In this document: positions 32,786-40,462 of the stretch, piece by piece | Layout of the letters: each line of letters begins with the position of its first letter | How positions within the stretch are numbered: position 1 is the stretch's first letter | DNA from: Ruminococcus sp. | GTDB taxonomy: Bacteria > Bacillota > Clostridia > Oscillospirales > Acutalibacteraceae | Direction: 5' to 3' | DNA: 64,000 bases | NCBI GenBank assembly: GCA_017458845.1 | Contig: JAFSZY010000014.1 | Coordinates: forward strand, 124,001 to 188,000 | Translations under genes and position numbers: made by a program | The notes under the pieces: generated by a model | What the model saw: only the letters and a program-made list of their open reading frames with translations | The model's database searches: none | What the model was told of the DNA's origin: nothing

Positions 32786-33529
32786 TTATTCCTCGGAAGC
32801 TTCTTCAGCCTCGTCAGCGTCGTCTTCTACTGCCGCGGCGCCCATCTGACCCTCGCGACCTTCGATAATAGCGTCAGCCATTGCGCCCGCGATAAGCTTA
32901 ACCGCGCGGATAGCGTCATCGTTACCGGGGATTACAAAATCGACCTCGTCGGGGTCGCAGTTTGTATCAACGATAGCAACAACAGGGATACCAAGCTTTT
33001 TAGCTTCGGCAACAGCGATTTTTTCTTTTCTGGGGTCAACAACAAAGAGAGCTCCGGGCATCTCAGACATATCCTTAATACCGCCCAAAAATTTCTCGAG
33101 TCTGTCAATCTCAAGGTTGAGCTTGATAACTTCCTTCTTGGGAAGAAGATCAAATGTACCGTCTTCCTGCATAACTCTGAGCTGTTTAAGACGGGCGATT
33201 CTCTTGCGAATTGTTGAGAAGTTTGTGAGCATACCGCCGAGCCATCTTGCGTTTACAAAGTAAGCGCCTGCTCTCTCAGCCTCTTCCTTAATGGAATCCT
33301 GAGCCTGCTTTTTTGTTCCTACGAAAAGAATGTTCTTGCCGTCCATAGCAAGTTCTTTGATGAAGTTATAAGCCTCATCAAGCTTTTTAACGGTCTTCTG
33401 CAAGTCAATGATGTAGATACCGTTACGTTCGGTGAAGATATACTCCGCCATTTTAGGGTTCCAGCGCCTTGTCTGATGTCCGAAATGAACGCCTGCCTCA
33501 AGAAGCTGTTTCATGGATACTGTTGACAT
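32786..33529 (-). CDS. rpsB: 30S ribosomal protein S2
   Basis: Ribosomal protein of the small subunit, needed to bind S1 and to start translation. 247 residues: begins [27 protein letters not shown], ends in an acidic glutamate- and aspartate-rich tail of about 20 residues. AAGGAGG precedes the ATG. A structured leader and strong promoter lie upstream, so S2 probably controls its own mRNA. Confidence 0.98.
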
Positions 33530-33559
33530 AATTAATTCCTCCTTAGGTTAAAACCTCCG

Positions 33560-33630
33560 TTCAGTCTTGATTCTTATCGGTTCAAACGAGGGATGTATCC
33601 TTCCCTCGGCACCTCACCGATAGACTTGAA
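33560..33630 (-). ncRNA. Structured rpsB leader, possible S2-binding autoregulatory element
   Basis: In the 5' leader of rpsB, read on the minus strand, an inner stem CGAGGG / CCCTCG with a 10-base loop sits inside a longer helix in which TATCGGT pairs with ACCGATA and TTCAAGTCT pairs roughly with AGACTGAA. The element lies between the promoter and the ribosome site. Firmicute rpsB leaders are known to carry S2-responsive structures; identity with that family is inferred from position and shape only. Confidence 0.65.
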
Positions 33631-33648
33631 CGTGCGAAATGCCTGTAT

Positions 33649-33676
33649 ATTATACCACAAATTCAGGAAAAATCAA
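33649..33676 (-). promoter_or_regulatory. SigA-type promoter of rpsB-tsf
   Basis: On the minus strand TTGATT (33671-33676) and a perfect TATAAT (33649-33654) with a 16-bp spacer. It gives a leader of about 110 bases that contains the structured element. Confidence 0.8.
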
Positions 33677-33696
33677 GCTTTTTTCAAAAAACGGTA

Positions 33697-33720
33697 AATA
33701 AAAAGCTCCCTTTCGGGAGC
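33697..33720 (-). terminator. Terminator of the SleB-like gene
   Basis: Perfect stem GCTCCC / GGGAGC with a 4-base loop, followed on the minus strand by five T and further T-rich sequence; begins 8 bases after the stop codon. Confidence 0.88.
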
Positions 33721-33728
33721 GATTTTAA

Positions 33729-34487
33729 TTAAGCTTTGTCAAAGAATCTGATATTTCCGCAGGATGTTACAAAAACCTGGCTTTCGTGCCAATCGCTGGA
33801 TACCATATCCGAAGCGTAGAAATAAAGGATTCTGTGATCAACTGCGCGTCCGTCGCTGTCAAAAATAAATGATACAGCCTGTTTAGCGGCAGATGAAGGT
33901 GTGTTGTACATTGAAGCGTCGTATTGATACATCGACGCAATACTTTCAACAGAAGTTGTACCGGACTCAACCATACTATCGTGGATAGCCTGAGCTACAA
34001 GAGCACAGCCCTCATAACCTAATCCGCCTGCCTCACCCATTACAAGTCCCTCAAGAAGAGTTCTGTCGTAATCGCTGAGCTCAATGTGAGTACCTGAAGC
34101 ACTGCTTTCCTGCTGAGGTTCTGTTTCCTCAACAACAGCCTCTGTCTCCTGCTCTGTAACAGGCTCAGTGGGAGCTTCTGTTTGAGGTTCGGTTTCTTTT
34201 TTGGTCACGGACTCTGTAGCCTTTGTTGTTTCGGGCTCAGTATCGGCAACGATAGCGTTGTCAAGAACATCCGAGTCGCCTACATTAACGGTGGACTTCT
34301 GTTCACCTGATACCGCGGCAACGTTCTGTACAAGGCTTATGCTCGGAATAACGATAGCTGACATAACAATAAAAGATGTTATTATAATTGAACCGATTTT
34401 TGAAATCTTCTTTACCTTGTTGACAGGTTGCGCGTGTTTTGCTTTTGAATCATTTGTTTTTAAATGCTTATAATTTGAACTTCTCAA
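33729..34487 (-). CDS. Exported SleB-like cell-wall hydrolase
   Basis: 252 residues. A basic N-terminus and one membrane segment (about 31-56) are followed by a linker rich in Thr, Glu and Pro with repeated TEP/TEAP units (about 82-130), then a domain like the SleB/Hydrolase_2 family: LLEGLVMGEAGGLGYEGCALVAQAIHDSM, where the glutamate in GEAGG matches the expected catalytic residue of these lytic transglycosylases. SleB proteins degrade spore cortex, but relatives act in growing cells, so the role is open. The start is TTG with a perfect AGGAGG eight bases before. Monocistronic, with its own promoter and terminator. Confidence 0.82.
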   Translation of the reverse strand: MRSSNYKHLKTNDSKAKHAQPVNKVKKISKIGSIIITSFIVMSAIVIPSISLVQNVAAVSGEQKSTVNVGDSDVLDNAIVADTEPETTKATESVTKKETEPQTEAPTEPVTEQETEAVVEETEPQQESSASGTHIELSDYDRTLLEGLVMGEAGGLGYEGCALVAQAIHDSMVESGTTSVESIASMYQYDASMYNTPSSAAKQAVSFIFDSDGRAVDHRILYFYASDMVSSDWHESQVFVTSCGNIRFFDKA

Positions 34488-34580
34488 AATCTTTTCCTCC
34501 TATCGAGTACGCTCTAAATCAATACGCAGTCTTTAGTAAGCAAGTGTATTTGATTGGTTCACACAATTTTCATTGGCGCT

Positions 34581-34609
34581 ATTAAAACACACTTTTTTTA
34601 AAAAATCAA
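34581..34609 (-). promoter_or_regulatory. SigA-type promoter of the SleB-like gene
   Basis: On the minus strand TTGATT (34604-34609) and TTTAAT (34581-34586) with a 17-bp spacer; the leader would be about 85 bases. The SigA-like match suggests expression in growing cells rather than only in the forespore. Confidence 0.65.
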
Positions 34610-34713
34610 GTCGGAATGCGGGTTTGAGCGGTTAAATTCGGTTACAACGGTAACATTCTGTAATTTTATTTCTTTAAAAGGAATATAAACTTATACACAA
34701 TAAACAAAAAGAA

Positions 34714-34746
34714 CTACCCTTGTATAAAAATTTTTTGAACAAGGCA
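34714..34746 (-). terminator. Terminator of the ylmC-type gene
   Basis: On the minus strand CTGCCTTGT pairs with ACAAGGGTAG (one bulge, one G-T pair) around an AT-rich loop, followed by TTCTTTTTG. Confidence 0.6.
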
Positions 34747-34761
34747 GAAATGGTATTTTTT

Positions 34762-35049
34762 TTAAAATTTATTAAAAAAACGGCGTTTTTTACCGCCAGG
34801 ACGGCGAAATTCTCCCTCTGAACCTACAAGTATTGTATCCTCCCCGATCAGCTCAATCTGATCCCAAGGGATAACGCAATCATCCTTTCTGCCAAGCAAG
34901 CCCCATAGCTTAAGCCTGCCGTAAATGATAAGAGCGCATACCCTCGCGCTTTTGGTATTCACCTCCAAATCGTCAACATATCCTATCCTGCATCCGTTGC
35001 GGCTGTTTATTACCTCTTTGTTCCTTAGTTGGGAAAGACTGCAATTCAT
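34762..35049 (-). CDS. YlmC/YmxH-family sporulation protein, PRC-barrel
   Basis: 95 residues forming a single PRC-barrel domain (LRNKEVINSRNGCRIGYVDDLEV ... CVIPWDQIELIGEDTILV) with a basic C-terminal tail. The family is recorded as sporulation protein YlmC/YmxH; a clear biochemical role is not known. GGTAGTGAT precedes the ATG. It is monocistronic and divergent from degV; the promoter must lie in the 90-bp AT-rich gap, but no convincing SigA match is seen on this strand, which would fit a sporulation sigma factor. Confidence 0.85.
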   Translation of the reverse strand: MNCSLSQLRNKEVINSRNGCRIGYVDDLEVNTKSARVCALIIYGRLKLWGLLGRKDDCVIPWDQIELIGEDTILVGSEGEFRRPGGKKRRFFNKF

Positions 35050-35069
35050 AAAATATCACTACCTTTTTA

Positions 35070-35098
35070 TTGACAATTAATAGCGTATTTATTATAAT
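35070..35098 (+). promoter_or_regulatory. Consensus SigA promoter of degV
   Basis: Perfect TTGACA (35070-35075), 17-bp spacer, perfect TATAAT (35093-35098), 42 bp before the degV ATG. This is the best promoter match in the window and predicts high constitutive expression. Confidence 0.9.
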
Positions 35099-35139
35099 TT
35101 ATATGTAATATACATTATATATATTACCAGGAGGTTAAT

Positions 35140-36027
35140 ATGAGTAATTACGGCGAATATGTTCTTTTTACCGACTCAACCTGTGATCTGCCCAACGAAA
35201 CAGCGGAGGAGTTTGATATTAAAATCCTTCCTATGGTTTTTCTTATGCAGGAACAGGCATACAATCATTTTTTAGACGCGAGAGAAATGAGTCTTGATGA
35301 GTTTTATACCAAGCTCAATGCAGGTGTCCAGTCTCAGACAACTCAGATTGCGTTTGACAGTTACGCTGAGTATTTTGAGCCATATCTTAAAGAAGGCAAG
35401 GATATCCTTTATATTGCTTTTTCATCAGCTCTAAGCGGTACATACAACACCAGTAAAATAGCCGCAAGAGAATTACTTGAAAAATATCCCGATAGGAAAA
35501 TAATCATAGTTGACTCCGCTTGCGCGAGCGCGGGTCAAGGCGCTCTTATGTATTATCTCGGCAAAAAGTACAAGGACGATAAACCGAGATTCGAAGATTT
35601 AGCCGAATATGCCGAAAGACTTAAGCTGAAAATATGCCACTGGTTTGTAGTTGACGATATCGACCAGCTCAAACGCGGAGGAAGAATCTCATCCGTTACA
35701 GCTACATTTGCCAAAGCGCTTCAAATCAAACCTGTTCTCAGCGTTGATAATGAAGGAAAGCTTGTTAACGTAGGAAAAATCAGAGGCGCAAACGGCATTA
35801 ACCAGCTGCTCATAAACAAAATGAAGCGCGACGGCGCTTTCTACAAACAGCAGACTGTGTTTGTTGCTCATGCAGATAATATTGAGGGCGCAAAACAACT
35901 CAGAAAACAGATAAAGGGACTGGTTAAGGACGTTAAGATATTCGATATTGGTCCTGTTATAGGAACTCATGTGGGTTCGGGTATGCTGGCGCTGGTATTT
36001 GTAGGCAAAAGAAATCTTGAAATGTAA
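35140..36027 (+). CDS. DegV-family fatty-acid-binding protein
   Basis: 295 residues. DegV (FakB-like) proteins bind a fatty acid and present it to the kinase FakA for phosphorylation. The two sequence marks are present: FTDSTCDLP near the N-terminus and SSALSGTYN around residue 95, whose Ser/Thr residues hold the carboxylate. A perfect AGGAGG precedes the ATG. Single-gene unit with a consensus promoter and a strong terminator. Which fatty acid it binds, and whether FakA exists in this genome, cannot be told here. Confidence 0.93.
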   Translation: MSNYGEYVLFTDSTCDLPNETAEEFDIKILPMVFLMQEQAYNHFLDAREMSLDEFYTKLNAGVQSQTTQIAFDSYAEYFEPYLKEGKDILYIAFSSALSGTYNTSKIAARELLEKYPDRKIIIVDSACASAGQGALMYYLGKKYKDDKPRFEDLAEYAERLKLKICHWFVVDDIDQLKRGGRISSVTATFAKALQIKPVLSVDNEGKLVNVGKIRGANGINQLLINKMKRDGAFYKQQTVFVAHADNIEGAKQLRKQIKGLVKDVKIFDIGPVIGTHVGSGMLALVFVGKRNLEM

Positions 36028-36056
36028 AAAATCGGCTTGATAACAAGCCGATTTTT
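36027..36056. terminator. Bidirectional terminator between degV and small ORF
   Basis: Perfect stem AAATCGGCTTG / CAAGCCGATTT with an ATAA loop and runs of T on both strands, so it can end degV on the plus strand and the two small minus-strand ORFs. Confidence 0.88.
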
Positions 36057-36058
36057 AC

Positions 36059-36199
36059 TTATTGGAGTTTATTTTCTATTTGCTCTACCTTTTCACTTGT
36101 AAATTTCAACGCTTTATCTGCCAAATCATTGATAATATCTATCGCGGAATGCTCTTTGTGTTCCGCGTTTTTGTTTGATGTCTTGTCTTTTTTATTCAT
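36059..36199 (-). CDS. Small ORF, 46 residues, charged helix
   Basis: Encodes a 46-residue, lysine- and glutamate-rich peptide starting MNKKDKTSNKNAEHKEHSAI; the second half (AIDIINDLADKALKF and VEQIENKLQ) looks like an amphipathic helix. GAGGT four bases before the ATG is a good ribosome site and overlaps the stop of the 27-residue ORF just upstream, so the two look like a tiny operon ending at the bidirectional terminator. No family recognised. The supportive signs are the ribosome site, the coupling and the terminator; it lies directly upstream of spoIIGA on the other strand. Confidence 0.5.
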   Translation of the reverse strand: MNKKDKTSNKNAEHKEHSAIDIINDLADKALKFTSEKVEQIENKLQ

Positions 36200-36206
36200 A
36201 CTTACC

Positions 36207-36290
36207 TCAATTGTGATAATTTATCATTGCCATTGTGCCCACTCCGATAAAGACACCTATAAAAACTCCCGAAATTACATTAAAGAACAT
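36207..36290 (-). CDS. Tiny membrane ORF, 27 residues, DUF3789-like
   Basis: Encodes a 27-residue peptide that is almost entirely one hydrophobic helix with repeated glycines (GVFIGVFIGVG), beginning MFFN and ending MINYHN. Length and glycine pattern resemble the DUF3789 family of very short membrane peptides; function unknown. GGGGAG lies 6 bases before the ATG, and its stop overlaps the ribosome site of the following 46-residue ORF. A promoter was not identified; the upstream sequence is shared with the divergent spoIIGA promoter. Confidence 0.5.
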   Translation of the reverse strand: MFFNVISGVFIGVFIGVGTMAMINYHN

Positions 36291-36306
36291 TTTGCACTCC
36301 CCTATT

Positions 36307-36339
36307 TTGACAGAGTATTCAACCTATAAATGAGATAAT
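36307..36339 (+). promoter_or_regulatory. spoIIG-like promoter with 21-bp spacer and possible 0A box
   Basis: TTGACA (36307-36312) and GATAAT (36334-36339) are 21 bp apart, too far for normal SigA promoters but close to the 22-bp spacing known for the Spo0A-activated spoIIG promoter of B. subtilis. The overlapping TTTGACA differs in one base from the 0A-box form TTCGACA. A TATAAA lies in the spacer but is only 12 bp from the -35. Confidence 0.55.
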
Positions 36340-36355
36340 AAACACGGTGGATAAT

Positions 36356-37147
36356 TTGAAAACAGTGTATGTAGACGTGATGATATTCACAAATATATTT
36401 GAGGACTTTTTATTGCTCTGCGCGGTCAAGTATATTTTAAGGATAAAAACCAAGTATTACAGACTAGTTTTGGGAAGTCTGGCAGGCGGAATAATGAGCG
36501 TATTATCACTTATTAATTTGAACTTTATCATAAGTGTTTTACTCAAAATTTTGTCTGCTTTATTATTGATACTTATTGCGTTCGGTTTCAAAGACAAAAA
36601 GCTGTTTATAAAATCATCCTCAACACTTATTGTAATCACTTTTCTTGTAAACGGAGCGATAATATGCTTTTACATTGCGCTAAAGCCAAACGGAATGTTA
36701 ATAATAAACGACAGCGTATATTTTGATATATCTCCTCTCTTGCTTATTATTCTTACCCTTGTTGTTTATATTATTCTGTTTTTGTATAAAAAGCTTTTTA
36801 AAAACCACGCCAAAACAAATCTGGTAAAAGATGTTGAAATAAAACTAAATAATTCAGCATTCATAATCAAATGCAAAGTTGACAGCGGATTGAACGCAAA
36901 GGAGCCGTTTTCAGGCAGTAGTGTAATTATTGTAGAAAAAAGCGTATTCAATGAAAGCGTTAACGAAAAAAATTTAAGAGTAATACCGTTTAAAAGTCTG
37001 GGCGGAGAAGGAATAATATACGGATTTAAAGCAGAAAATGTGATAATTGACAGAAAAACAATTAATGAAGAAATATATATAGGAATGTACGAAGGAAAGT
37101 TCAACAACGAGATAAAAGGGCTTTTGCCTGAAAGTATAGGAGAATAA
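36356..37147 (+). CDS. spoIIGA: Sigma-E processing peptidase SpoIIGA
   Basis: Membrane aspartic protease that activates pro-sigma-E in the mother cell after a signal from the forespore. 263 residues: five membrane segments in the N-terminal half and a cytosolic protease domain. The catalytic motif, usually DTGN or DSGN, reads DSGLN here (Asp about 176), so an inserted or replaced residue follows the glycine. I chose the TTG at 36356, five bases after GGTGG, because it gives the typical start MKTVYVDV; the GTG at 36347 has no ribosome site. Followed after 2 bases by sigE, its substrate. Confidence 0.88.
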
Positions 37148-37149
37148 CT

Positions 37150-37845
37150 ATGAAACTTTTTAAAATATTAATATCAAGATTTTTAATCACCGATAACGAG
37201 ATTTATTATATTAACGGAAGTGAAACTTTGCCTCCGCCTTTAAGCAAAGAACGTGAAAATGCTGTTATTGAATCAATACGTTCGGGTGATGAAAGCGGAA
37301 AAGAAATACTTATTGTACACAACCTCAGGCTTGTTGTATATATAGCTAAAAGATTTGAAAGCGCGGGCGCAAATATTGAGGATTTAATTTCAATTGGGAC
37401 AATCGGGTTAATTAAAGCTGTAAACACATTTAATCCGGACAAAAACATAAAACTCGCTACATACGCGTCAAGATGTATAGAAAATGAAATACTTATGTTC
37501 CTGAGAAAAAGCAGTCAGCTGAAAAATGAAGTAAGTATCGATGAACCTCTGAACACCGATTGGGACGGCAACGAGCTGTTATTGTGCGATGTTCTTGGCT
37601 CAGACCCCGATATTATTAACAGGAATATTGAAACAGAGTTAGAATGCAGTCAGCTGCATCAGGCTGTCTCAAGGTTAAACAAACGTGAAAGCGCAATAAT
37701 GGAGCTGCGTTTTGGACTTAACGGTCAAAAAGAACATACCCAAAAGGAAGTAGCCGATTGTCTTGGAATATCTCAGTCGTATATTTCCAGACTGGAGAAG
37801 AAAATAATTAAGAAACTAAAAAACGATTTAGAAAAAGTGGTATAA
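37150..37845 (+). CDS. sigE: Sporulation sigma factor SigE (pro-form)
   Basis: Mother-cell sigma factor controlling early sporulation genes, made inactive with an N-terminal pro-sequence that SpoIIGA removes. 231 residues: the pro-sequence (residues 1 to about 19) leads to [13 protein letters not shown], then regions 2 ([30 protein letters not shown]), 3 and 4 ([34 protein letters not shown]). The pro-sequence is about eight residues shorter than in B. subtilis SigE. sigG, usually the next gene, is missing; a terminator follows. Confidence 0.95.
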
Positions 37846-37874
37846 AAAAACGTCTCGTAATGAGACGTTTTTAA
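37844..37874. terminator. Bidirectional terminator of sigE and the lipoprotein gene
   Basis: Perfect stem AAACGTCTC / GAGACGTTT with a 5-base loop, A run before and T run after, serving both convergent genes. Confidence 0.88.
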
Positions 37875-38083
37875 TCTTGGCTGACATTTCCGTTGTCATT
37901 AGTTTCATTCGTGATATCGCCGTCGCTGTTATCCATCATATCGCTTGCGGCTTCGGATATACTTTCGGATGCGTCTGTAACAAGCCCTTCGGCTTCCTTG
38001 GCGGCATCTCCTACGTTGCCGCAGCCAGCAAATGAAAACAACGCGATTAACGCTGTCATAATAATAGCTATTATCTTTTTCAT
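37871..38083 (-). CDS. Small lipoprotein of unknown function
   Basis: 70 residues. The signal peptide ends in a lipobox-like FAGC (Cys 21), so the mature protein would be a lipid-anchored, acidic peptide rich in Asp, Glu, Asn and Ser with helix-like A-x-x-A spacing. No family recognised. AAGGTGAT precedes the ATG. A hairpin upstream separates it from the MORN-repeat gene. Confidence 0.7.
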   Translation of the reverse strand: MKKIIAIIMTALIALFSFAGCGNVGDAAKEAEGLVTDASESISEAASDMMDNSDGDITNETNDNGNVSQD

Positions 38084-38105
38084 AAAATCACCTTAAATAT
38101 AATAA

Positions 38106-38130
38106 ATTACCGTCCCATTGGAACGGTAAT
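38106..38130 (-). terminator. Hairpin after the MORN-repeat gene
   Basis: ATTACCGT pairs perfectly with ACGGTAAT around a 9-base loop, 23 bases after the stop. The following TTATTATATTT is only partly T-rich, so termination may be incomplete and reach the lipoprotein gene. Confidence 0.5.
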
Positions 38131-38152
38131 ATTATTTGAATTTATAATGATT

Positions 38153-39436
38153 TTATTCATCTTTGGCATTATTTAACAAATCATCAATCTTATATGATGA
38201 AATCACCTTATCATCCTTGAATACAGATACTATGAAAGAACCGTCGTCATCAAGAGAAATACCTTTCCCCTGCTTTTTGCCGTATAAATAGTTTCCAAGG
38301 AAAATGAATTTGCCGTCTTTATCAAAGCGGGCTCCTATTCCGTCGGGCTGATTATTATCCCATTTACCGATATGAGCGGAGCCGTCAGAGCCTCTGAAAC
38401 CAACGCCAAAGCCGTTTCGAGAGTTCTTAACCCAATTGCCTACATAGTTAATCCTGCCGTCTTTAAAATAGAAAGCGCCGAAACCGTCACGCTTATCGTT
38501 CTTATATCCGCCTTCATACGCTGTTATGCCCTCGCCGGTAACAGTTCTGCCGTAGCCGTCGCGCATATGAGCGTCATTGAGCTGACCATAGTAACGATAG
38601 GTTTCGCCCGAACTTTCAATAGTAGTATCAGGTTCTTCGATTTCTTCATCATAAACTTTGACATCTACGTCGTCAGACTTTTCATCAAACTCGTTTTTGA
38701 CTTCGTTAAACGGAGCGTTTGTATCTATGTGAACGGGATTACCGTTCTCCTCAGTTAAATACTCAGCTTTATTGATATCAAAGGTTTTGTTGAGGTTTCG
38801 GTTCAGGTTAAAATCAACGGGGTCAAAGTCAAACCCGCCCAAATTACTAACCGAGGAATCATGAATAAGAGTTTTGGTGATGAATTTATCGTTTGGAACA
38901 GAATTAAAATATATAAACCCCTTGTCCGAGAAAGCGAGCAGAGAATAATCGCCGTTATCAGGCATTTCTGTTTTGGGATAAAGGTAGGATTTCACATTAG
39001 ATTCATATGCGTTGTGAATCTTTACAATAACAGGCTTATCGTCTATAAAGGAAGGATACAACACATATTCGGGATAATCGCCCGCTGTAGAGAGATACTC
39101 CGACTTGAGCCAGATATGCTCATAATTGAAGTATTCTCGCTTAAAGATTTTTCCGTTTTTATTATATGTATTTACTCTGTAGGAGTCGGAATTTACAACC
39201 TCAGCGTTCTGATATAGCTCGTCATTCTTCATAGACTTCCAGCTAAGCGGAGAACCGTTAGATATAGTGTACATAAAGAAATACTTGTTTTCGCCAATAT
39301 ACTGCACACAGCGGTCGGATTGAGTCTCTAAACTGCTGTTAAAGAAATTAGCCCTTACGCCCGCTAAAAAATCATCCGTAAAGTCAAGAATATCAAATTT
39401 TTCAAAAGTTGTTCCAAAATATAAATAATTATCCAT
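38153..39436 (-). CDS. MORN-repeat protein
   Basis: 427 residues without signal peptide. The C-terminal part (about 285-405) has at least five MORN-type repeats of about 23 residues with the pattern Y-x-G-x-x-x-x-G-x-G (for example DGYGRT, RDGFGAFYF, RNGFGVGF, PDGIGARF). The N-terminal 250 residues are rich in Tyr, Asp and Phe and not recognised; a Glu- and Asp-rich linker (about 245-280) joins the two. MORN repeats often bind lipids or proteins, but no function can be given. AGGTATAAT precedes the ATG. Confidence 0.75.
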   Translation of the reverse strand: MDNYLYFGTTFEKFDILDFTDDFLAGVRANFFNSSLETQSDRCVQYIGENKYFFMYTISNGSPLSWKSMKNDELYQNAEVVNSDSYRVNTYNKNGKIFKREYFNYEHIWLKSEYLSTAGDYPEYVLYPSFIDDKPVIVKIHNAYESNVKSYLYPKTEMPDNGDYSLLAFSDKGFIYFNSVPNDKFITKTLIHDSSVSNLGGFDFDPVDFNLNRNLNKTFDINKAEYLTEENGNPVHIDTNAPFNEVKNEFDEKSDDVDVKVYDEEIEEPDTTIESSGETYRYYGQLNDAHMRDGYGRTVTGEGITAYEGGYKNDKRDGFGAFYFKDGRINYVGNWVKNSRNGFGVGFRGSDGSAHIGKWDNNQPDGIGARFDKDGKFIFLGNYLYGKKQGKGISLDDDGSFIVSVFKDDKVISSYKIDDLLNNAKDE

Positions 39437-39457
39437 ATTATACCTGCTCTAATAATA

Positions 39458-39482
39458 AAGGATTAAGCTTGACTTAATCCTT
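39458..39482 (-). terminator. Terminator of pfkA
   Basis: Perfect 10-bp stem AAGGATTAAG / CTTAATCCTT with a 5-base loop, followed on the minus strand by TTATTATTAG; 12 bases after the pfkA stop. Confidence 0.75.
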
Positions 39483-39493
39483 TTTATATATTA

Positions 39494-40462
39494 TTAAATT
39501 GATATCGTCTTTGCTATTTTATATAAGTCCTTGTTAAACTTTCGCGGCATTTCGAGCGCTTCGGTAATATCGTAATCAACGATTTCACCTTTATTCATAG
39601 CTACAACTCGATTGCCCTTGCCCTCATCAAGAAGCTCAACGGCTCTGTGTCCCATCATAGAAGCGACAACACGGTCACGAAGCGTCGGAGAACCGCCGCG
39701 CTGAACATGTCCGAGGATTGTAGCTCTGGTCTCGATACCCAAGCGTTGTTCAATATACTTCGCCATATCAACAACACCGCCTACGCCCTCGGCAACGATA
39801 ATGATAAAGTGCTGTTTGCCTGTCTTTTGTGTATCGAGAATACGCTCGATCACGTCTATTTCAATATTATACTTTTCCTCGGGAACAAGGATAGCTGTAG
39901 CTCCGCAGGCTATACCAACCTGTAATGCGATATCACCGCATCGTCTGCCCATGACTTCTACAATAGAACAGCGGTCATGAGACTGCGCTGTGTCACGGAT
40001 TTTATCTATCATCTGTATAGCGGTATTCATAGCTGTATCAAAGCCGATAGTATACTCGGAGCAAGCGATATCATTATCGATAGTACCCGGAACGCCTATA
40101 CAGTTGACGCCCGCGTTTGTAAGAGCTCTGGCGCCGGCGAATGAACCGTCGCCGCCGATTACAACAACGCCCGAAATACCAAGGTCCTGACAATGCTTGG
40201 CTGCTTTCTTCTGACCTTCAAGAGTTTTGAACTCTTCGCTGCGGGCAGTGTAAAGCATAGTTCCGCCGTTGCCGATAATATCGGAAACCGAACGAAGATT
40301 CATTTGCTCCACATCGCCGTTCAAAAGGCCGTTATATCCTCTGTATACGCCGTAGATGTCCATTCCTTTGGAAATAGCGGAACGTACGACAGCGCGTACA
40401 GCAGCGTTCATTCCAGGAGCGTCGCCTCCGCTTGTTAAAACCGCAATCTTCTTTTTGCTCAT
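39494..40462 (-). CDS. pfkA: ATP-dependent 6-phosphofructokinase
   Basis: Main control point of glycolysis: fructose 6-phosphate plus ATP to fructose 1,6-bisphosphate. 322 residues, with GGDAPGMNAAVR at the start, GGDGSFAGA (glycine at the position that marks ATP rather than pyrophosphate use), VPGTIDNDI with catalytic Asp and glycine instead of lysine, and TIGFDTA. The usual allosteric-site arginines appear in GHVQRGGSPTLRDR. A perfect AAGGAGG ribosome site and a SigA promoter lie upstream; monocistronic. Confidence 0.97.
   Translation of the reverse strand: MSKKKIAVLTSGGDAPGMNAAVRAVVRSAISKGMDIYGVYRGYNGLLNGDVEQMNLRSVSDIIGNGGTMLYTARSEEFKTLEGQKKAAKHCQDLGISGVVVIGGDGSFAGARALTNAGVNCIGVPGTIDNDIACSEYTIGFDTAMNTAIQMIDKIRDTAQSHDRCSIVEVMGRRCGDIALQVGIACGATAILVPEEKYNIEIDVIERILDTQKTGKQHFIIIVAEGVGGVVDMAKYIEQRLGIETRATILGHVQRGGSPTLRDRVVASMMGHRAVELLDEGKGNRVVAMNKGEIVDYDITEALEMPRKFNKDLYKIAKTISI

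Follow-up and report, generated by a model that had tools for sequence, protein, structure and literature searches.

Among the proteases that activate sporulation sigma factors, SpoIVFB is controlled by BofA and other small membrane proteins. Is a comparable peptide known for SpoIIGA, the protease that processes pro-sigma-E? A search of the literature on SpoIIGA together with small membrane or divergently encoded proteins found no such peptide, an absence from print that holds only for the literature searched. In a 2026 paper, SpoIIGA is described as having five N-terminal membrane segments, and its activation by SpoIIR is called poorly understood (PMC13174948). The promoter of spoIIGA has been mapped in C. 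difficile, for which two papers give GTGACA and TATAAT boxes and low-affinity binding of Spo0A to the promoter region (PMC3789822, PMC3485338); G2, C4 and G5 of the box TGTCGAA are listed there as Spo0A contacts (PMC3485338).

Genetic organisation of the spoIIGA locus

The window analysed here is a stretch of 64,000 nt from Ruminococcus sp., and all coordinates refer to it. spoIIGA lies at 36347-37147 on the plus strand (PF03419, 145.8 bits; 114.2 bits with the TIGR02854 equivalog model, under its cut-off of 209.55). The gene directly 3' of it, at 37150-37845 on the plus strand, is presumably a sigE-like sigma factor gene, a name given by recognition of its sequence and not by a family match. 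The same genome encodes both Spo0A and SpoIIR, and the sporulation setting is therefore sound. On the upstream side, a DegV-family gene (35140-36027, plus strand; PF02645, 238.8 bits) is the convergent outer neighbour, and the gap between it and spoIIGA measures 319 bp (36028-36346), not the 290 bp of an earlier sequence-only reading of this DNA. The DegV gene is itself preceded by a perfect 12/12 sigma-70 type promoter (TTGACA-17-TATAAT; 35070-35098, plus strand), and on its far side lies a PRC-barrel gene of the YlmC type (PF05239; 34762-35049, minus strand).

Two small open reading frames occupy the minus strand of this gap. ORF1 (36207-36290) encodes a 27-residue putative DUF3789-like membrane micropeptide, MFFNVISGVFIGVFIGVGTMAMINYHN, and is preceded by the ribosome-binding site AGGGGAG (36297-36303, minus strand). 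ORF2 (36059-36199) encodes 46 residues that would form a charged amphipathic helix, and its Shine-Dalgarno-like GAGGT (36204-36208, minus strand) overlaps the stop codon of ORF1 (36207-36209). The sequence thus bears out the positions and the stop-to-ribosome-site overlap described in the earlier reading. A likely bidirectional terminator lies between ORF2 and DegV, as had been proposed: the sequence at about 36024-36058, flanked by a T run on each side, can form a stable hairpin in either orientation, with folding energies of -18.5 kcal/mol (z -8.1) for the minus strand and -17.7 kcal/mol (z -6.6) for the plus strand.

Distribution of ORF1 at spoIIGA

How widely is ORF1 found beside spoIIGA? 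When SpoIIGA was used to locate the same place in related genomes, 142 places were found in 141 of 161 genus genomes; 110 of these were retrieved, 107 with sufficient upstream sequence. A profile built from 18 seeds detected ORF1 opposite spoIIGA in 85 of the 107 regions, the lowest at 17.6 bits, and nothing above 10 bits on the other strand (0/107), in shuffled DNA (0/107) or in distal DNA (0/99). The conservation upstream of spoIIGA in related genomes to which the sequence-only reading had looked therefore stands against zero in three controls. The seeds are included among the 85 positives; with the seeds set aside, ORF1 was recovered in 67 of the 89 other regions. The distance from the ORF1 start to spoIIGA is narrowly distributed, with a median of 63 nt and a central 80% of 56-73 nt.

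A whole-genome search found ORF1 adjoining spoIIGA in six of the 32 remaining places, a poorer yield than in the 107 analysed regions, and the total is at least 91 of 139. ORF1 is missing from 22 of the 107 spoIIGA loci, two of which belong to the same subclade as the window; its absence there, together with the low count in the remaining places, indicates that ORF1 is not essential to SpoIIGA. On a tree of SpoIIGA with 95 rows, 19 of them without ORF1, the presence of ORF1 is explained by five changes (shuffled mean 17.7).

Does ORF1 travel with spoIIGA or with the gene on its other side? Of the 79 ORF1 loci for which 900 nt or more of upstream sequence was available, 44 have DegV as their outer gene and 33 have another gene (some 16 clusters); in two the outer gene is uncalled. 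The other genes include a sodium:neurotransmitter symporter (PF00209, L075) and V-ATPase operons; in L073, L082 and L086, the direct outer neighbour is related to the PRC-barrel gene of the window. Where ORF1 is absent (22 loci), the gene in this position belongs to a subunit-H-like cluster in 15, is DegV in two and is something else in five. ORF1 thus stays with spoIIGA and not with its outer neighbour, although a conserved arrangement of genes may by itself be due to interlocked promoters instead of function.

Outside the genus the association was not found in the genomes sampled. The upstream regions of 60 sister-genus spoIIGA genes yielded no ORF1 (0/60, best score 6.4 bits). Among 245 sampled genomes of the order, peptide matches occur in 20 others, and spoIIGA lies in none of their 3-kb loci. 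Of the 20 genus genomes without spoIIGA, only three have listed hits: two of these score 32-35 bits, and the third is truncated at the end of its contig. One of the former, L211, is inside a mobile element. A scan of genome contigs gave two loci, one from a genus member (L141) and one distant. In the whole-genome search, few genomes had an ORF1 of the full-length kind anywhere but beside spoIIGA.

ORF1 as a probable membrane micropeptide of the DUF3789 kind

The conservation of ORF1 is that of a protein. G12 is invariant (84/84 rows), and M1, G8, F10, G16 and M20 are nearly so. All four glycine codons are used at G12 (GGC 34, GGA 29, GGT 13, GGG 8), and it is thus the protein that selection keeps. 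Close relatives (23 pairs) give a pS of 0.387 and a pN of 0.056 (pN/pS 0.15, with pN below pS in 23/23), as against ratios of 1.46 and 1.85 in the two other frames. The ratio rises to 0.30 when all 801 pairs that diverge by less than 35% are taken and to 0.47 for the 3451 pairs under 60%, with 1.09 and 1.45 in the other frames. That ORF1 is a real protein is virtually certain.

The earlier description of ORF1 as a glycine-patterned membrane peptide has been strengthened by this comparison. G8, G12 and G16 are all glycine in 79 of 84 rows, forming a GxxxGxxxG motif; a charge occurs within residues 1-20 in only one of 84 rows, and K or R is found past residue 20 in 70 of 84. This charge pattern suggests a membrane helix with its C-terminus probably inside. 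To judge from sequence, ORF1 would be a single-pass membrane micropeptide, mostly of 27-30 residues, whose glycine face appears suited to helix packing.

Searches of Pfam and NCBIfam with the window's own ORF1 and ORF2 gave nothing useful, and DUF3789 (PF12664) becomes visible only through relatives: 69 of the 85 ORF1 rows match it at E values up to 1 (best 2.7e-10), and the window's own row does not. Relative to the gathering score of 22 bits, L032 (22.4) and L100 (40.2) are above and L033 (19.2) is below. The ORF1 group therefore appears to be of the DUF3789 kind through its relatives, although the window's copy alone fails the family match. No paper naming DUF3789 was found in the literature searched. 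Elsewhere in these genomes, most of the other DUF3789-type peptides (L203-L214) lie beside relaxase-, recombinase-, ParA/ParB- or methylase-like genes; in L208 and L213 the peptide is chromosomal, between SPFH-like and metK-like genes (all names by recognition).

Origin of ORF2

ORF2 has a much narrower distribution. A profile from 13 seeds, which are counted among its positives, found it in 18 of the 107 genus regions, each time together with ORF1, and in none of the controls (other strand 0/107, shuffled 0/107). Its start lies 2-26 nt past the ORF1 stop in the 17 loci where a ribosome site was recognised. Its seven close pairs have a pS of 0.612 and a pN of 0.132 (ratio 0.22; other frames 1.18 and 2.03), and 85 wider pairs have a ratio of 0.50 (other frames 0.95 and 1.31). 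AlphaFold predicts one helix over residues 4-45 (mean pLDDT 75, pTM 0.37). On the SpoIIGA tree, with 13 rows carrying ORF2, its presence is explained by three changes (shuffled mean 12.4), and none of 500 shuffles was as low as observed for either ORF. ORF2 is confined to one clade of 16 rows (support 97). It is a genuine selected protein of one subclade, and most ORF1 loci are consequently without it.

The view that the gap holds two genuine small proteins is thus upheld by their recurrence in profile searches with empty controls and by the codon-level purifying selection present in both. Other parts of the sequence-only reading fared less evenly. Stops or frameshifts in close relatives would have told against it; in the closest relatives both frames are open, and yet within the ORF2 clade the two ORFs are missing from L018 and L028, as is ORF2 from L025. 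In the DegV-spoIIGA gap of L028, several similar hairpin-forming repeats are found instead. The tie of ORF1 to the spoIIGA locus holds in most sampled members; the idea of ORF2 as its fixed partner does not, given its restricted occurrence and its probable ancestry in a V-ATPase stalk.

This ancestry is suggested by the outer neighbours. In L220 (genome G177), where ORF1 is present, a full V-ATPase operon is divergent from spoIIGA, in the order H-like, I (PF01496, 85.2 bits), K (PF00137), E (PF01991, 40.6 bits), C (PF01992), F (PF01990, 78.5 bits), A and B, followed by a further gene that we take to be subunit D. The same order, assigned by eye except for F, is found in the ORF1-less genome G074 (L219), where K falls in a stretch outside the ORF list used, and in the sister-genus genome G278 (L221). 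Since the operon is divergent from spoIIGA in both the genus and a sister genus, the arrangement predates the genus. Pfam does not pick up subunit I of L033 from its first 301 residues; the full L220 gene passes.

A degraded form of this operon is found in L021 and L023. Here ORF1 is followed by an ORF2 of 100-102 residues, by an ORF of 117-122 residues whose similarity to subunit E is weak (18.9 bits at best, far under the cut-off; BLAST E 5e-4) and by a subunit F gene (35.3 and 37.0 bits against a Pfam cut-off of 23.5), with no A, B, C, I or K between ORF1 and DegV. The long ORF2s score 40.3 and 34.9 bits with a genus subunit-H profile, for which the best of 1000 shuffles reached 13.6 bits and the best reversed sequence 15.9. 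With TIGR02926 (cut-off 48.5) they score 22.1 and 19.0 bits, and the genus subunit H itself scores 28.5 and 23.0. A profile of the short ORF2s, built without the long ones, scores these at 45.5 and 43.5 bits.

The direct comparison of short ORF2s with subunit H is far weaker. The window's ORF2 scores 7.4 bits with the genus subunit-H profile and has no NCBIfam match, the short-ORF2 profile scores subunit H at about 1 bit, and profile-profile alignment by hhalign is weak (P 0.0055, probability 2.8). Pairwise BLAST matches ORF2 to subunits H and E alike, with no separation. Of the 18 ORF2 loci, L021 and L023 alone retain E-like and F genes; in the window, the stretch from ORF2 to DegV holds no V-ATPase gene, whether E, F or another. 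Descent of ORF2 from V-ATPase subunit H is nevertheless the probable, though not assured, explanation. The operon divergent from spoIIGA would have been mostly deleted in the subclade, leaving a shortened subunit H as ORF2, which may have been retained under selection in the form of a soluble, amphipathic helix whose translation follows that of ORF1.

The spoIIGA promoter and a possible shared control of ORF1

The spoIIGA promoter of the window reads TTTTGACA-N21-GATAAT. Its -35 element, which is also a Spo0A-box-like site, lies at 36305-36312 on the plus strand and reads TGTCAAAA on the minus strand; the -10 element, GATAAT at 36334-36339 on the plus strand, was assigned by pattern and is preceded by TG (extended -10). 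The pattern GACA-N19..23-NATA(A/C)T is found in 100 of 107 genus loci, with a spacing of 21 nt in 99 and 19 nt in one, and 93 of these 100 have TG ahead of the -10. Shuffled controls gave a mean of 1.24 per 107 and at most seven. The pattern is also present in 48 of 60 sister-genus regions, with a spacing of 19-22 nt overall and of 21 or 22 nt in 47, and at 15 genus loci without ORF1. The spoIIG promoter of B. subtilis has a spacing of 22 nt. Compared with TGTCGAA, the window's minus-strand box keeps G2 and C4 and does not keep G5. This conserved promoter resembles a Spo0A-controlled spoIIGA promoter, and its sequence would be consistent with binding of Spo0A.

The ribosome site of ORF1 abuts the -35/Spo0A-like box, and the ORF1 transcript must consequently start inside or beyond the spoIIGA promoter. 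A sigma-A promoter for ORF1 on the minus strand could not be told apart from shuffled sequence (score 8.28 against 8.01). A minus-strand -10-like hexamer overlaps the spoIIGA -10 in 85/85, an overlap that is largely forced by the sequence of that element. No second 0A box was found at a common position within ORF1, with up to one mismatch allowed.

What is the function of ORF1?

One answer, which we put forward tentatively, is that ORF1 acts at SpoIIGA or elsewhere in early sporulation. A DUF3789-type micropeptide would have become established next to spoIIGA in this genus, and its glycine-zipper helix might pack against the N-terminal membrane helices of SpoIIGA, or against itself beside them, and so tune the timing of pro-sigma-E cleavage. 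With its membrane segments, SpoIIGA would be a natural partner. Because the Spo0A-box-like site is just upstream of the ORF1 ribosome site, expression of the two genes could be coupled, either with both switched by Spo0A or with ORF1 made first and then shut off by Spo0A. The more specific proposal, that a DUF3789 peptide from a mobile element has become a dedicated SpoIIGA partner, determines when or at what threshold pro-sigma-E is cleaved and shares a Spo0A control region with spoIIGA, is rather unlikely as it stands. Other DUF3789-type peptides in these genomes, in mobile elements and other places, have no link to sporulation, which counts against such a role.

Alternatively, ORF1 might be a general DUF3789-type membrane micropeptide that serves in vegetative growth or under stress and may have come from a mobile element; it would then be held in place by promoters so interlocked that separating them does damage, and Spo0A would switch it off. 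This is a serious contender, if short of an even chance. It would account for the DUF3789 matches of most ORF1 rows, for the company of relaxase-, recombinase- and ParA/ParB-like genes at other such loci, and for the ORF1 ribosome site lying adjacent to the -35 box. However, interlocking is evidently not compulsory, since the spoIIGA promoter is kept where ORF1 is absent, both in the sister genera and at genus loci. A peptide of general use would also have to be reconciled with the scarcity of the full-length kind away from spoIIGA.

The V-ATPase operons raise a different possibility: ORF1 could be a V-type ATPase accessory peptide, and both ORFs remnants of an operon divergent from spoIIGA. 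Complete operons in this position, with ORF1 (L220) or without it (L219 and the sister genus, L221), fit the idea, as do L033-L036, in which ORF1 precedes subunit H. Yet 15 of the 19 spoIIGA loci with a subunit-H neighbour have no ORF1, and ORF1 is next to spoIIGA in all eight spoIIGA-bearing genomes without a V_ATPase_I match; among these, G161 has a subunit-H-like neighbour and may be incomplete, and G059 is a single contig. An accessory role is made unlikely by these eight genomes, and we regard it as improbable.

Type I toxin peptides have the size and hydrophobicity of ORF1, which could on this basis be a toxin-like peptide kept together with an antisense RNA. DUF3789-type genes do occur in mobile elements, and a terminator-like hairpin with a T run is predicted by folding on the plus strand, antisense to ORF2 (36143-36167). 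Comparably strong hairpins, with different stem letters, occur at this position in the nearest relatives L011 and L012, but the hairpin is clear in only three of 18 ORF2 loci and unclear in the other 15, and an Rfam search of 34500-38500 gave no match. Retention of one place over much of the genus and the conserved glycine pattern also speak against a toxin, and such a role is even less probable than one in the V-ATPase; the plus-strand hairpin may instead insulate spoIIGA from DegV read-through. Chance ORFs in the gap are hardly credible: short ORFs are common (87 of at least 20 residues overlap 33000-39500), and this reading is rejected by the conservation relative to controls, the synonymous change beneath the invariant glycine and the low pN/pS in the true frame only.

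Comparison with known systems

For ORF1, the case is now stronger than the sequence-only reading had claimed; the ORF1-ORF2 pair is limited to a subclade, and the probable ancestry of ORF2 was unexpected. A micropeptide gene conserved at the spoIIGA promoter is a concrete new candidate at the SpoIIR-SpoIIGA switch step, and DUF3789, a family without an assigned function, gains a chromosomal place at which a phenotype can be sought. ORF2 suggests that a stalk subunit may dwindle to a tiny gene while selection persists, and the operons of L219-L221 show that the genes of an ion pump have long been neighbours of a sporulation operon.

Similar to DUF3789, the ORF1 group consists of short, predicted single-helix membrane proteins with the same G-x-F-x-G core; it differs in being fixed beside spoIIGA, whereas most other DUF3789-type loci examined are in mobile elements. 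The genus promoter matches that of C. difficile spoIIGA in its GACA-type -35/0A box, its NATAAT element and its wide spacing. The long ORF2s of L021 and L023 resemble AhaH (TIGR02926) in their match to the genus H profile and in the H/E-like/F gene order of the intact operon; the window's ORF2, by contrast, has 46 residues instead of about 102. If ORF1 does act on SpoIIGA, BofA would be its closest functional analogue, as a small membrane protein that controls a sigma-activating protease; the analogy implies no sequence similarity, and SpoIVFB is not the same protease as SpoIIGA.
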